From Falsirhodobacter deserti (GTDB lineage Bacteria; Pseudomonadota; Alphaproteobacteria; Rhodobacterales; Rhodobacteraceae): a stretch of 64,000 nucleotides of DNA. Shown here in pieces: positions 13,746-19,011 of the stretch. Under the pieces are notes generated by a model. That model was given only the letters and a program-made list of their open reading frames with translations. It was not told the origin of the DNA and did not search any database. Every line of letters begins with the position of its first letter. Position 1 is the first letter of the stretch. Position numbers and translations under genes: made by a program. The DNA is taken from the NCBI RefSeq assembly GCF_004015795.1, contig NZ_ML137218.1, positions 1,649,811 through 1,713,810 on the forward strand, given 5' to 3'.

Positions 13746-13889
13746 TCAGGCGGCGCTGCCGATGCCGGCCGCCTTGCGCCGCGCCACGCGGGCGCGGATC
13801 GCCTCGATATCCGTCACCGGCGTCGCGGCGAACAGCTTGCGGGTATAGCCATGGCTGGGCGCGCCGAACACGGCATCGCGGCTGCCCTA
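13746..13889 (-). pseudogene. Disconnected C-terminal tail of dppF behind an amber codon
   Basis: After the TAG at 13889-13887 the same frame continues for 46 sense codons to TGA at 13748-13746. It reads as a normal DppF/OppF C-terminal region (DAVFGAPSHGYTRKLFAATP). CAG (Gln) to TAG is a one-base change that would restore the family consensus VVEQG. No alternative start is obvious, so this segment is probably untranslated unless the codon is suppressed or the base is a sequencing error. Confidence 0.75.
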
Positions 13890-14585
13890 TTCGACAACCT
13901 CGCCCTTGAACATCACCATCACCTCGTCGGCGATATATCGCACGACGGAAAGGTCGTGGCTGATGAACACATAGGTCAGGTTGAATTCATCCTGCAGATC
14001 GGCCAGCAGGTTCAGCACCTGCGCCTGAACCGAAAGGTCCAGCGCCGAAACCGGTTCGTCCAGCACCAGAAGCCGCGGGTTCACCATCAGCGCCCGCGCG
14101 ATTGCCAGACGCTGCCGCTGCCCGCCCGAGAACATGTGCGGATAGCGCCCGAAATGTTCGGGCAGCAGGCCCACGCGCGTCAGCATCGCCATCGCCTTTT
14201 CGCGGCGGGTGGCGGCGTTGTCGTCGGTGTTCAGGACCAGCGGCTCCATCAGCATGTCGCCGACCTTCTGGCGCGGGTTCAGGCTGCCATAGGGGTTCTG
14301 GAACACGATCTGCACCTGGCGGCGCAGCTCCGGCGTCAGGCCGGATACGTTCACCGCCTGCCCGTCGATCAGCAGCTCCCCTTCCGTGGCCGGGTCGATC
14401 AGCGTCAGGATGCGGGCCAGCGTGGACTTGCCGCATCCGGATTCGCCCACGATAGCCAGCGTCTTGCCCTGTTCGACGCTGAAGGTGATGCCTTTCAGCG
14501 CCCGCACCGGCTGCGCCTTGCGGAACATGCCCCCGGCACCGGGATAATCGCGGATGATGTTCTTGGCTTGCAGAACTGCGGTCAT
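13887..14585 (-). CDS. dppF: Dipeptide ABC transporter ATPase DppF, truncated by in-frame TAG
   Basis: Second ATPase of the dipeptide importer. 232 residues instead of 278 because of an amber codon after GEVVE. The nucleotide-binding core is complete: Walker A GESGCGKST (47-55), Q-loop VFQNPYGSLNP, signature FSGGQRQR, Walker B LLVLDEPVSALD and H-loop FISHD. What is lost is the C-terminal helical extension that includes the GAPSHGYTR segment seen intact in DppD. ATGA overlap couples it to dppD. The core may still hydrolyse ATP; loss of function is an inference. Confidence 0.85.
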   Translation of the reverse strand: MTAVLQAKNIIRDYPGAGGMFRKAQPVRALKGITFSVEQGKTLAIVGESGCGKSTLARILTLIDPATEGELLIDGQAVNVSGLTPELRRQVQIVFQNPYGSLNPRQKVGDMLMEPLVLNTDDNAATRREKAMAMLTRVGLLPEHFGRYPHMFSGGQRQRLAIARALMVNPRLLVLDEPVSALDLSVQAQVLNLLADLQDEFNLTYVFISHDLSVVRYIADEVMVMFKGEVVE

Positions 14586-15430
14586 CGTGCGGCCTCCAGC
14601 GTGGCAGGGTCGATGAAGTCGGAAACGGTTGCCAGGCGGTCGCCCGTCGCATGTTCCGGCAGGGCCGACAGCAGCGCCTTGGTATAGGGATGCGAGGGGG
14701 CCTCGAACAGGGTCAGCACGTCGGCCTCCTCCATCTTGCGACCCTTGTATTTCACGATCACGCGGTCGGCGGTTTCAGCCACCACGCCCATGTCGTGGGT
14801 GATCATGATCATGCCCATGCCGGTATCTTCCTGAAGCTTCATCAGCAGGTCGAGGATCTGCTTCTGGATCGTCACGTCCAGCGCCGTCGTCGGTTCGTCC
14901 GCGATCAGTAGCTTCGGCTGGCAGGCGATGGCGATGGCGATCATCACGCGCTGGCACTGCCCGCCCGACATCTGGTGCGGATAGGAGCCAAGGCGCTTTT
15001 CCGGATCAGGAATGCCGACGGCGGCAAAAAGCTCGATCGCGCGCTTGCGGCGGTCGGCGCGGCCAAGACCCAAATGGGCGCGCAGCACCTCCTCGATCTG
15101 GTAGCCGACCGTGAAGCAGGGGTTCAGCGAGGCAATGGGCTCCTGGAAGATCATCGAGATCTCCCGCCCGATGATGGCGCGCCGGTCCTTGTCGGACATG
15201 GTCAGCAGGTCACGGCCATCGAAGGTCATGACATCGGCCGTGACGGTGGCGGTTTTCGGCAAAAGCCCCATCGCCGCCAGCATCGACACCGATTTGCCCG
15301 ACCCGGATTCGCCCACGATGGCCAGCACCTCGCGCTGGGCCACCGTCAGGTCCAGCCCCTTGACGGCATGGAAGGTCCCCGTCGCCGTGGCGAAGTGGAC
15401 GTTGAGGTTGCGGATCTCCAGAAGTGCCAT
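14582..15430 (-). CDS. dppD: Dipeptide ABC transporter ATPase DppD
   Basis: 282-residue cytoplasmic ATPase pairing with DppF on the DppBC permease. Walker A GESGSGKS near residue 40, Q-loop [11 protein letters not shown], signature MSGGQCQR (Cys where Gln is common after GGQ), Walker [14 protein letters not shown] and H-loop ITHDMG. The C terminus keeps [12 protein letters not shown], the conserved oligopeptide-transporter tail missing from DppF. ATG 15430 follows the dppC stop by 1 nt; it overlaps dppF by 4 nt. Confidence 0.92.
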
Positions 15431-15431
15431 G

Positions 15432-16325
15432 TCAGCTCCGCTTCAGTTTCGGGTCAAGCGCATCGCGCAGGCCGTCACCCACAAGGTTGATGGCCAGAAC
15501 CGTGATCAGGATCGCAAGGCCGGGGAAGGTCACGACCCACCAGGCGCTGAGGATGAATTCGCGGGCCTCGGCCAGCATGGTGCCCCATTCGGGCAGCGGC
15601 GGCTGCGCGCCCATGCCAAGAAAGCCAAGCGCTGCCGCATCCAGAACCGCGTTCGAAAATGACAGCGTGCCCTGGACGATCAGCGGCGCCATGCAGTTCG
15701 GCAGGATCGTGCGGACCATCAGGCGGAAGTGCCCTGCCCCCGCCACACGCGCGGCCATGACATATTCACGGTTCTTTTCCGCCATCACGGCGGCGCGGGT
15801 CAGGCGCGCGAAGTGCGGCTGCAGCACGATCGCGATGGCAATCATCGCGTTCATCAGGCCCGGGCCAAGAATGGCCACCATCACCAGCGCCAGCAGCAGC
15901 GACGGGAAGGCAAGGATCACGTCCATCACGCGCATGATGACAGTATCGACCCAGCCGCCGAAGAAGCCGGCAAGAAGGCCCAGAACGATGCCGCCGATCA
16001 GCGCGATGGTCACCACCACGCAGCCGATGATCAGCGACTGTCGCGCGCCGAAGATCAGGCGCGACAGCACGTCTCGGCCCACGGCATCGGTGCCCAGCAG
16101 GAACTGGCCGGTGCCCCCTTCCTGCCACGCAGGCGGGGTCAGCAGGAAATCGCGATATTGCTGGATGGGATTATGGGGGGCCAGCAGCGGCGCGAAGATC
16201 GCGATGGCGATCAGCAGGACGAAAACGGCCAGACCGATCACGGCCCCGCGGTTTTCGGAGAAATAGAACCAGAACTCGCGCAGTGCACGGCCCCGTTCGG
16301 ACTTGATTTTGGGTGTCGCGGTCAT
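15432..16325 (-). CDS. dppC: Dipeptide ABC transporter permease DppC
   Basis: 297-residue inner-membrane permease with an N-terminal cytoplasmic stretch, a first helix ([20 protein letters not shown]), a periplasmic loop containing [15 protein letters not shown] typical of DppC/OppC, and five further helices. The EAA-type loop that docks the ATPase is near [20 protein letters not shown]. Seven nt separate it from dppB and 1 nt from dppD, consistent with one mRNA. Confidence 0.93.
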
Positions 16326-16332
16326 GCTGCCC

Positions 16333-17340
16333 TCACGAATGCCGGATGCGCGGATTGATGATGCCGTAAAGCAGATCGACGATCAGGTTCACGATCATCA
16401 CGACGCCTGCAATCAGCAGCAGCCCGCCCTGCACCGACGGATAATCACGCCGCGAAATGGAATCGATCATCCACTTGCCCACACCGGGCCACGAAAAGAT
16501 CGTCTCGGTCAGGATGGCGCCCGCCATCATCACGCCGATCTGCAGGCCGATGGTGGTGATCACGGGGATCATCGCGTTGCGCAGCGCATGAACGCCCACC
16601 ACCCGCCAGGCCGACATGCCCTTGGCGCGGGCGGTGCGGACGTAATCCTCCGACAGCACTTCAAGCATGGCCGAACGCGACTGGCGCGCGATCACGGCCA
16701 TGGGGATGGTTGCCAGCACGATGGCCGGCAGGATCAGGTGGCTGAGCGCCGACCGGAACGCCCCGCTTTGCCCCGACATCAGCGAATCGATCAGCATGAA
16801 GCCGGTGCCGTTGGGGAAGAAATACAGAAGGTCGATCCGCCCCGAAACCGGTGTCCACCCCAGAATGCCCGAGAACAGGATGATCAGCAGCAGGCCCCAC
16901 CAGAAGATCGGCATCGAATATCCGACCAGTGCCGTCCCCATGGAGATCTGGTCGAAGGCGCTGCCGCGCTTGATGGCGGCAAATACGCCCAGCGGAATGC
17001 CGATAAGGGTGGCAAGGATGATGGCGCAGACCGCCAGTTCCACCGTTGCGGGAAACAGGGTCAGGAATTCGCCCAGCACCGGACGGCGCGTGGCAAGCGA
17101 CGTGCCGAAATCACCCTGGAACAGCCCCGTGACAAAGTCCCAGTACTGCACCACGATGGGCCGGTCGAACCCCAGTTGCGCCGAAAGCTGCGCGTGCCGT
17201 TCAGGGCTGATGCCCCGCTCGCCCGCCATGAGAAGAACGGGATCGCCCGGCAGAAGCCGGACAAACCCGAAGGCGACGACCGTGATCCCGATAAAGGTCG
17301 GGATCAGATAGGCCAGCTTGCCAACAAGAAATCTGATCAT
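16333..17340 (-). CDS. dppB: Dipeptide ABC transporter permease DppB
   Basis: 335-residue permease, close to enterobacterial DppB in length and sequence (IPTFIGITVVAFGFVRLLPG, AGERGISPERHAQL, GYSMPIFWWGLLLI, AILTETIFSWPGVG). Six helices; EAA loop in RTARAKGMSAWRVVGVHALR. Start set at ATG 17340 to match this N terminus. The frame is open for 20 more codons to an ATG at 17400, but that stretch is the dppA-dppB hairpin region. The similarity to the dipeptide rather than general oligopeptide branch supports the dpp naming of the whole operon. Confidence 0.92.
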   Translation of the reverse strand: MIRFLVGKLAYLIPTFIGITVVAFGFVRLLPGDPVLLMAGERGISPERHAQLSAQLGFDRPIVVQYWDFVTGLFQGDFGTSLATRRPVLGEFLTLFPATVELAVCAIILATLIGIPLGVFAAIKRGSAFDQISMGTALVGYSMPIFWWGLLLIILFSGILGWTPVSGRIDLLYFFPNGTGFMLIDSLMSGQSGAFRSALSHLILPAIVLATIPMAVIARQSRSAMLEVLSEDYVRTARAKGMSAWRVVGVHALRNAMIPVITTIGLQIGVMMAGAILTETIFSWPGVGKWMIDSISRRDYPSVQGGLLLIAGVVMIVNLIVDLLYGIINPRIRHS

Positions 17341-17360
17341 CGGTGTCTCGAAAAGTTGGA

Positions 17361-17393
17361 GGCGCGCCGAAGGGAAAATCCCCTCGACGCGCC
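17361..17393 (-). other. Intercistronic stem-loop between dppA and dppB
   Basis: GGCGCGCCGAAGGG (17361-17374), loop of 5 nt, CCCCTCGACGCGCC (17380-17393): 14 paired positions with two mismatches, filling the gap between the dppA stop and the dppB start. Such hairpins often protect the upstream binding-protein mRNA and lower permease expression. Confidence 0.65.
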
Positions 17394-17412
17394 GGGTCAT
17401 GCTTTGGGCCGA

Positions 17413-19011
17413 TCACTCGGCGATGTCGACGCCTTCAAAGCTGTGGCGGCCCAGCGGGTTCATGACATATCCCGTCACCTTGGACGACATCGGCATGAAA
17501 ACGGTCGAGTGACCGAGCGTGGCCCACGGGTTCTGATCCTTGAAGATCACCTGTGCTTCTTCGTAAAGGCGCGTACGTTCGGCCTGATCGGTCGAAACCT
17601 TGGCCTGCTGGATCAGCGCCTCGAACTCATCGTTGCACCACTGGGCGCGGTTGGCCCCGCCTTCGCCCGTGGCGGCGCAGCCCAGCAGCGTGGCAAGGAA
17701 GTTGTCCGGATCGCCGTTGTCACCGGTCCAGCCCATGATGACGGCACCTTCGCGGCCAAGCTCGGTCGAACGCTTCAGGTATTCGCCCCATTCATAGGAC
17801 ACAATGGACACGTCCACGCCAACCTCGGCGAAGTCGGACTGGATCAGTTCGGCCACGCGGCGGGCGTTGGGCATGTAGGGACGCTGCACCGGCATCGCCC
17901 AGACTTCCATCGAAAGGTCTTCCACCCCAGCCTCTTGCAGAAGCTGGCGCGCGGCTTCGGGGTCATAGGGGTTGTCCTCGACCTCGTCGTTATAGGACCA
18001 CATGGTCGGCGGGATCGGGTTCTTGGCAACAACGCCCGTGCCCTGGAACACCGCATCCACGATGGCCTGCTTGTTCATGGCCATGTTCAGCGCGCGGCGC
18101 ACGTCGGGATTGTCGAAGGGCGCGACCGTGGTGTTATAGGCCAGATACGCGACGTTCAGGCCCGGCTGTTCCATCACCTGCAGGTTCGGGTTGGACTTCA
18201 GCGCCTCGATATCGGCCGGGGCGGGATAGGGCATGATATGGCATTCGCCCGCTTCAAGACGCTGGCGGCGCACTGCCGGATCGGGTGTGATCGCGAAGAT
18301 CAGGTTGTCGATCGCCTGCTTGCCCTTGTAATAATCGGGGTTCGCCTGATAGCGGATCACGGCATCGGGCTGATAGGCGACGAGCTGGAACGGGCCGGTA
18401 CCGACAGGCTGGCTGTTCAGCGCGGCCATGTTGCCATCTGCTTCCAGCTTGTCGGCATATTCCTTGGAATAGATCGAGGCGAACGGCATCGCCAGGTTGG
18501 CCAGGAACGGCGCTTCGGGGCGGTTCAGAACGAAGGTCACCGTCAGATCATCATCCTTGCGGATTTCCTTGATCAGCGTCGGCATCTCCATCGCGTCATA
18601 ATATTCATAGGTGGTGCCGGGAATGTAATCGGCCCACGGGCTTTCGGGATCGCCCTGACGCAGGAACGAGAAGATGACGTCATCGGCGTTCATCTCGCGC
18701 GTGGGGGTGAAATAATCGGTGGTATGAAACTTGATGCCCGGACGCAGGTGGAACGTGTATTCCAGGCCATCCTCGGACACGTCCCAGCTTTCGGCAAGGC
18801 CGGGCACGGTGTTGGTGGTCCCCGGCTCGAACTCCACCAGACGGTTGAAGACGGCGTCGCTGCTGGCATCCATCGTGGTGCCCGAGGTCGTGGACGCGGC
18901 ATCGAACCCTTCGGGCGATCCTTCCGAACAGTAAACCAGCGTCTTGGCGTGAACGCCGGAGGCGGCCGTCAGGGCAAGCGCAGAGGCTGCCAAAAGATGG
19001 GCAAGTTTCAT
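17413..19011 (-). CDS. dppA: Dipeptide-binding periplasmic protein DppA
   Basis: 532-residue solute-binding protein, family 5. Signal peptide MKLAHLLAASALALTAASGV ending near HA, with mature start KTLVYCSEGSPEGF as in DppA. Family signatures: GLAESWDVSEDGLEYTFHLR, NADDVIFSF, QPVGTGPFQLVAY and WTGDNGDPDNFLATLLGC (the last typical of DppA and heme/dipeptide binding proteins). GGGAG precedes ATG. First gene of dppABCDF; the gap upstream (19012-19220) has a possible -10 TAAAAT at 19069-19074 on the minus strand but no good -35. Confidence 0.93.
   Translation of the reverse strand: MKLAHLLAASALALTAASGVHAKTLVYCSEGSPEGFDAASTTSGTTMDASSDAVFNRLVEFEPGTTNTVPGLAESWDVSEDGLEYTFHLRPGIKFHTTDYFTPTREMNADDVIFSFLRQGDPESPWADYIPGTTYEYYDAMEMPTLIKEIRKDDDLTVTFVLNRPEAPFLANLAMPFASIYSKEYADKLEADGNMAALNSQPVGTGPFQLVAYQPDAVIRYQANPDYYKGKQAIDNLIFAITPDPAVRRQRLEAGECHIMPYPAPADIEALKSNPNLQVMEQPGLNVAYLAYNTTVAPFDNPDVRRALNMAMNKQAIVDAVFQGTGVVAKNPIPPTMWSYNDEVEDNPYDPEAARQLLQEAGVEDLSMEVWAMPVQRPYMPNARRVAELIQSDFAEVGVDVSIVSYEWGEYLKRSTELGREGAVIMGWTGDNGDPDNFLATLLGCAATGEGGANRAQWCNDEFEALIQQAKVSTDQAERTRLYEEAQVIFKDQNPWATLGHSTVFMPMSSKVTGYVMNPLGRHSFEGVDIAE

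Follow-up and report, generated by a model that had tools for sequence, protein, structure and literature searches.

In-frame TAG codons in dppF and other conserved genes of the Falsirhodobacter deserti assembly: consensus errors or stop-codon readthrough

In-frame stop codons in critical genes are the classic sign of stop-codon reassignment in bacteria; according to a 2021 study, every known bacterial change concerns UGA (reassigned to Trp or Gly), and some inferred stop-codon meanings are put down to pseudogenes (PMC8629427). UAG is known to be suppressed in another setting, recoded E. coli lacking RF1, where Gln and Tyr were reported as the previously known near-cognate insertions and Asp and Val were added to them (PMC6207430).

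Here, we describe in-frame TAG codons in the genome assembly of Falsirhodobacter deserti (GCF_004015795.1, designated G000), one of them in dppF, which lies in the window (i.e., the whole stretch of DNA analysed) of 64,000 nt on contig NZ_ML137218.1. Set beside the reassigned bacteria of the 2021 study, this genome shares the in-frame stops in critical genes and differs in that the codon is UAG, the sites are few, the release factor is kept, and a dedicated tRNA was not found in the searches given below (PMC8629427). The TAGs stand at Tyr and Gln sites, at residues that are among those inserted in the RF1-less E. coli cells, whereas in F. deserti the RF1 gene is open and TAG ends many genes (PMC6207430). 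Consensus base errors in assemblies likewise scatter in-frame stops over genes that have to be functional, although almost all of the stops found here are of a single codon type and few indels were seen. Should the bases be wrong, at least six conserved genes are misstated in the record despite its excellent completeness figures, and its calls of young pseudogenes ought to be retracted; should they be right, a bacterium is living with UAG inside ileS and prfB, and the first steps of stop-codon reassignment become directly testable.

The dppF frame and its orthologues

Read on the minus strand, window positions 14585-13746 hold 232 codons (13890..14585), a TAG at 13887-13889, 46 further open codons (13749..13886), and a terminal TGA at 13746-13748, just as an earlier note on this DNA had read the frame. 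The ABC ATPase domain is complete within the first 232 codons (Pfam ABC_tran, residues 30-179; 118.5 bits against a cut-off of 25), which confirms the note's placing of the ATPase core before the TAG. The frame adjoins, on the same strand, dppD (ATP-binding protein, 14582..15430), dppC and dppB (permeases, 15432..16325 and 16333..17400), and dppA (substrate-binding protein, 17413..19011), all recognized from open reading frames and profile matches and all open, so that the rest of the operon is intact, as had been claimed; the NCBIfam scores of these neighbours also fall below the equivalog cut-offs. Compared with described DppF proteins (NF043071, NF008453), the gene has the same domain, the same dppA-B-C-D-F order, and orthologues in six genus mates, but it differs in the in-frame TAG after 232 codons and in the scores of the resulting fragment, which lie under both curated cut-offs (365.5 bits against 408 for NF008453, the dipeptide ATP-binding subfamily, and 330.2 bits against 660 for NF043071). 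The frame being interrupted, its assignment as a putative DppF orthologue rests on sequence identities of 85-88% to the orthologues present in all six same-genus genomes (G001-G006). A match to oligo_HPY (PF08352) covers positions 1-34, with the TAG inside it, and reaches 24.5 bits, below the cut-off of 27.1. Elsewhere in the genome, at C2:90477-90581, a second oligo_HPY match has a TGA inside it.

All six same-genus orthologues are unbroken and continue past the site with a recognizably homologous tail of 45-47 residues (counting the residue at the TAG). The DppF-like character ascribed to the 46 downstream codons is thereby upheld, and the finding that would have spoken against an interruption, namely sister genomes all without these codons, was not made in the six same-genus species (species, not strains). 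Among 46 wider relatives, the tail measures 39-55 residues (the site included) in 43, 79 and 87 residues in two, and runs into a contig end in one. The C-terminal extension that the earlier note considered lost is therefore no long extension missing here in particular, the tail being short in most relatives. It might still be supposed that the TAG is the normal end of a shortened but working DppF, for which the complete ABC_tran domain upstream of the TAG speaks; however, all six orthologues of the genus, and all but one of the 46 wider relatives, run at least 39 residues from the site, the contig ending there in the exception, and no relative with the same short end was seen among the 46, which leaves this explanation very improbable.

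The residue aligned with the TAG is Tyr in four of the same-genus orthologues, Phe in one, and His in one, and in the 46 wider relatives it is Tyr (20), Arg (11), His (6), Gln (4), Ser (2), Ala (2), or Lys (1). The proposed origin of the TAG from CAG consequently did not hold up: Gln is found in none of the six genus mates and in only four of the wider relatives. When this dppF was compared with each sister separately, tail and body had about the same share of replaced residues with G002, G004, and G006, and the tail exceeded the body some 2- to 2.5-fold with G003, G001, and G005; because the sisters were not set against each other, this comparison says nothing firm on decay. The gene is intact in close relatives (6/6 genus mates) and disabled here, as in a pseudogene, and the note's remark that the break, if real, is young stands as far as its recency is concerned.

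In-frame stops in other genes of the genome

The window and 80 stretches of 20 kb, together 1.664 Mb (56% of the genome), were searched with a composition scan for stop codons that have coding-like sequence on both sides in frame; artificial TAGs placed at TAC codons of open reading frames in the first 864 kb were recovered in 113 of 150 cases. The scan returned 105 rows (TAG 22, TGA 58, TAA 25), most of which, judged by eye, mark the normal end of one gene ahead of the start of the next. Sorting by eye left 7 of the 22 TAG rows as interruptions, in dppF, prfB, ileS, gltB, truB, a histidine kinase gene, and a DUF3644 gene, and one TGA row, in serC. All eight interrupted genes are intact in at least one relative.

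The prfB gene, the only RF2 gene of this genome, has its TAG at C1:615420 (L226:15420), at a site occupied by Phe in three sisters and Tyr in three. The TAG of ileS, the single close match to isoleucyl-tRNA synthetase in the genome, lies at C1:412432 (L224:12432), soon past the KMSKS motif, where all six sisters have Tyr; the truB site is likewise Tyr in six of six, and the gltB site is Tyr in five sisters and His in one. Solved IleRS and TruB sequences, where alignments were shown, also carry Tyr at the respective sites. The TGA of serC, at C1:2024888 (L340:4888), stands at a Trp site in all six sisters and in the one solved SerC whose alignment reaches it. Gln occupies the histidine kinase site in the two sisters with a close match and the DUF3644 site in the one sister with a close match. 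Taking the bases as they stand in the record, the TAG sites thus correspond to Tyr or Tyr/Phe/His at five of seven and to Gln at two of seven. For dppF, prfB, and gltB, Tyr as the former residue is what we infer, since sister G004 has Phe, Phe, and His, respectively, at these sites.

The DUF3644 gene (L217:13506, L290) has a copy of 94-95% identity in G004, on contig C6, and lacks a close match in the other five sisters, a distribution that suggests it may be mobile. Two further frames, L215:10161 (-) with a TGA and L205:16480-16696 (-) with a TAA, look like decayed accessory genes. Plasmid searches brought up only more distant relatives, which were left out of the comparisons.

A scan by homology, which takes no account of codon type, found three TAGs (dppF, prfB, truB) and one TGA judged spurious in the 167 kb of G000 that G004 proteins cover; over the last 20 stretches (34 kb covered) it found one TGA, also judged spurious. 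In the reverse direction, no interruption was seen over 165 kb of G004, and 37 kb of G003 gave only one TGA, again judged spurious, these spurious cases being antisense or chance frames. The composition scan of 400 kb of G004 yielded 28 rows, 3 of them TAG and all ordinary ends by eye, a control that is weak alone because just under two cases would be expected at the G000 rate.

Isoleucyl-tRNA synthetase and RF2 are essential in bacteria, so that the TAGs in prfB and ileS must be either wrong or read through, and the dppF TAG is, like them, probably absent from the cell or translated. The earlier note had listed mutation, base-call error, and readthrough as possible causes; the list was the right one, although a nonsense mutation private to dppF is no longer the natural reading, given that at least four more conserved genes, including two essential ones, contain in-frame TAGs. 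Such a lone mutation, with the other TAGs as errors, would probably mean that the 232-residue product is unstable or poorly coupled and that dipeptide uptake via the operon is impaired. It would find room in a transporter gene that is probably dispensable, with related ATPases encoded at other places of the genome (47 scored matches to the query), and in an operon otherwise open and a dppF tail still open and recognizable. A private cause is nevertheless unneeded, because essential genes in this assembly show the same type of event at Tyr sites, and we consider a genuine young mutation of dppF alone quite unlikely.

tRNAs, release factors, and stop-codon usage

The search for a tRNA with a CUA anticodon that the earlier note had suggested was run and gave none: not among the 44 Rfam tRNA hits of the genome, typed by ARAGORN, not in the 1.664 Mb scanned whole with ARAGORN, not among the four matches to a whole-genome CUA-tRNA pattern, and not in the tRNA-Tyr searches, with the proviso that the Rfam search did not list the normal tRNA-Tyr, that the survey is less complete outside the 1.664 Mb, and that a strange or unassembled tRNA could escape. 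A pattern search located a tRNA-Tyr in each of the seven genomes; that of F. deserti is the only one in its genome, has the anticodon GTA, and is identical to those of G003 and G004. In the tRNA-Tyr of the genus (L177:1457-1540), the anticodon loop ends in C.

The RF1 gene prfA is open, and its predicted product scores 484 bits, above the cut-off of 423 (in the comparison with the sisters, one sister row, L199, in the wrong frame, was left out). Loss of RF1 was accordingly rejected as a cause of UAG reading, as was loss of PrmC or RF3, both of whose frames (named by eye) are open. Loss of queuosine through tgt was also rejected, tgt, the one queuosine gene considered, being open in 7 of 7 genomes. 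TAG serves as the end of 84 of 711 open reading frames in this genome (1.264 Mb, ~12%), compared with 31 of 287 in G004, 3 of 42 in G003, and 2 of 16 in G002; no depletion of TAG at gene ends was seen relative to G004.

Wrong bases or translated UAG

The likeliest explanation, to which we give an even chance, is that the dppF TAG is a wrong consensus base, one of a set of errors also present in prfB, ileS, gltB, and truB. We prefer it because the translation machinery, as far as it was seen, offers no account of how UAG would be read and because base errors in assemblies are far commoner than new decoding. The living strain would then carry sense codons at the TAG sites, and the errors would be mostly substitutions towards G or C, a miswritten G in a Tyr codon (C when seen on the opposite strand) giving TAG. 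The bias towards Tyr does not exclude errors, since a change to G at the third position makes TAG of Tyr codons and hardly any other stop. Uniform random substitutions, however, would rarely give five Tyr-to-TAG cases among six: in a random-substitution test picked after the pattern had been seen, the probability of at least 5/6 was 3e-5, 1e-5, and 2e-6 for transition weights of 1, 2, and 4, and over ten interruptions it was 1e-3, 4e-4, and 7e-5. Nor does the Trp-to-TGA change in serC fit errors biased towards G or C, and the assembly figures are good (7 contigs, 100% complete).

Alternatively, the TAGs may be real, with UAG read mainly as Tyr by the near-cognate tRNA-Tyr, which would mispair at the third codon position under weak competition from RF1, and with UGA read as Trp in serC; RF2 would then be made only as far as the UAG in prfB is read. 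Each of the six cases in conserved genes is compatible with a change at the third position (Tyr to TAG in five, Trp to TGA in one), which is why the original tRNA would be the near-cognate reader. The TAGs at Gln sites are confined to the dispensable-looking histidine kinase and DUF3644 genes, the essential prfB and ileS are among the interrupted genes, no Tyr-to-TAA case was seen in the 1.664-Mb scan, and changes found only in this genome show no general excess. Readthrough would, on the other side, lack a visible cause, RF1 being open, a CUA tRNA not having been found in the above searches, and tRNA-Tyr being the same as in two sisters; TAG still ends ~12% of the genes, and readthrough efficient enough for IleRS would lengthen the proteins that end there. 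Even among Tyr sites, moreover, TAG is uncommon (5 found, with 7,172 Tyr codons counted in long open reading frames of the sample), Tyr is found in six of six sisters only at ileS and truB, with a former Tyr presumed elsewhere, and the changes confined to this genome are denser near the stops. On balance, translation of real TAGs comes second and is less likely than not. The wider proposal built on it is more tentative still and rather unlikely: that in a free-living alphaproteobacterium whose RF1 gene is open, and for which these searches found no suppressor tRNA, in-frame UAG is decoded as Tyr, and UGA as Trp, well enough for such codons to stand in essential genes, including that of RF2, whose supply would be tied to RF1 strength, the organism thus being at an early, ambiguous stage of UAG reassignment.

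Base changes around the stops bear on the consensus-error explanation in both directions. Speaking for errors, amino-acid changes confined to this genome number 13 in 593 columns within 50 codons of the six stops and 19 in 1983 columns beyond, as against 33 near and 135 far for the six sisters pooled, and base changes confined to this genome are denser within 30 codons of the stops (odds ratio 2.0, p 0.008). Up to 100 bases from the stop, such changes are transversions to G or C in 4/4 cases at dppF and 3/3 at truB, and in 5/9 at ileS, 1/8 at prfB, 1/3 at gltB, and 0/2 at serC; within 30 codons, transversions to G or C make up 14 of 25 changes near the stops and 34 of 98 far from them, a weak difference (p 0.07). 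An error process biased towards G or C at the needed rate should raise singletons of this kind across the genome, and the absence of such a rise counts against it: across codon positions 1 and 2 of 41 genes, 99 of 319 singletons were transversions to G or C, a share of 0.31, compared with 0.31 in G002, 0.34 in G003, 0.41 in G004, and 0.40 in G006 (G001, with 0.27, and G005, with 0.22, had few singletons and were left out of the test). The resulting likelihood ratio of ~16 against G/C-biased errors at the needed rate is inflated by scatter between genomes. Genome-wide clustering of these transversions was not seen either (z 0.56).

Indel errors are the commoner kind in long-read consensus sequences, and their scarcity here, with one convincing frameshift, is a further point against consensus errors. 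The frameshift survey raised 8 flags in this genome and 1 and 1 in two controls; three of the eight were read, and the remaining five were dismissed from their coordinates and identity only. The convincing case, found in ~317 kb of matches (overlaps counted), concerns a comEC-like gene, named by eye. It lies in L277 near 6215 (-), close to the gene start and, by eye, in a run of G, and may be either a real slip or another consensus error.
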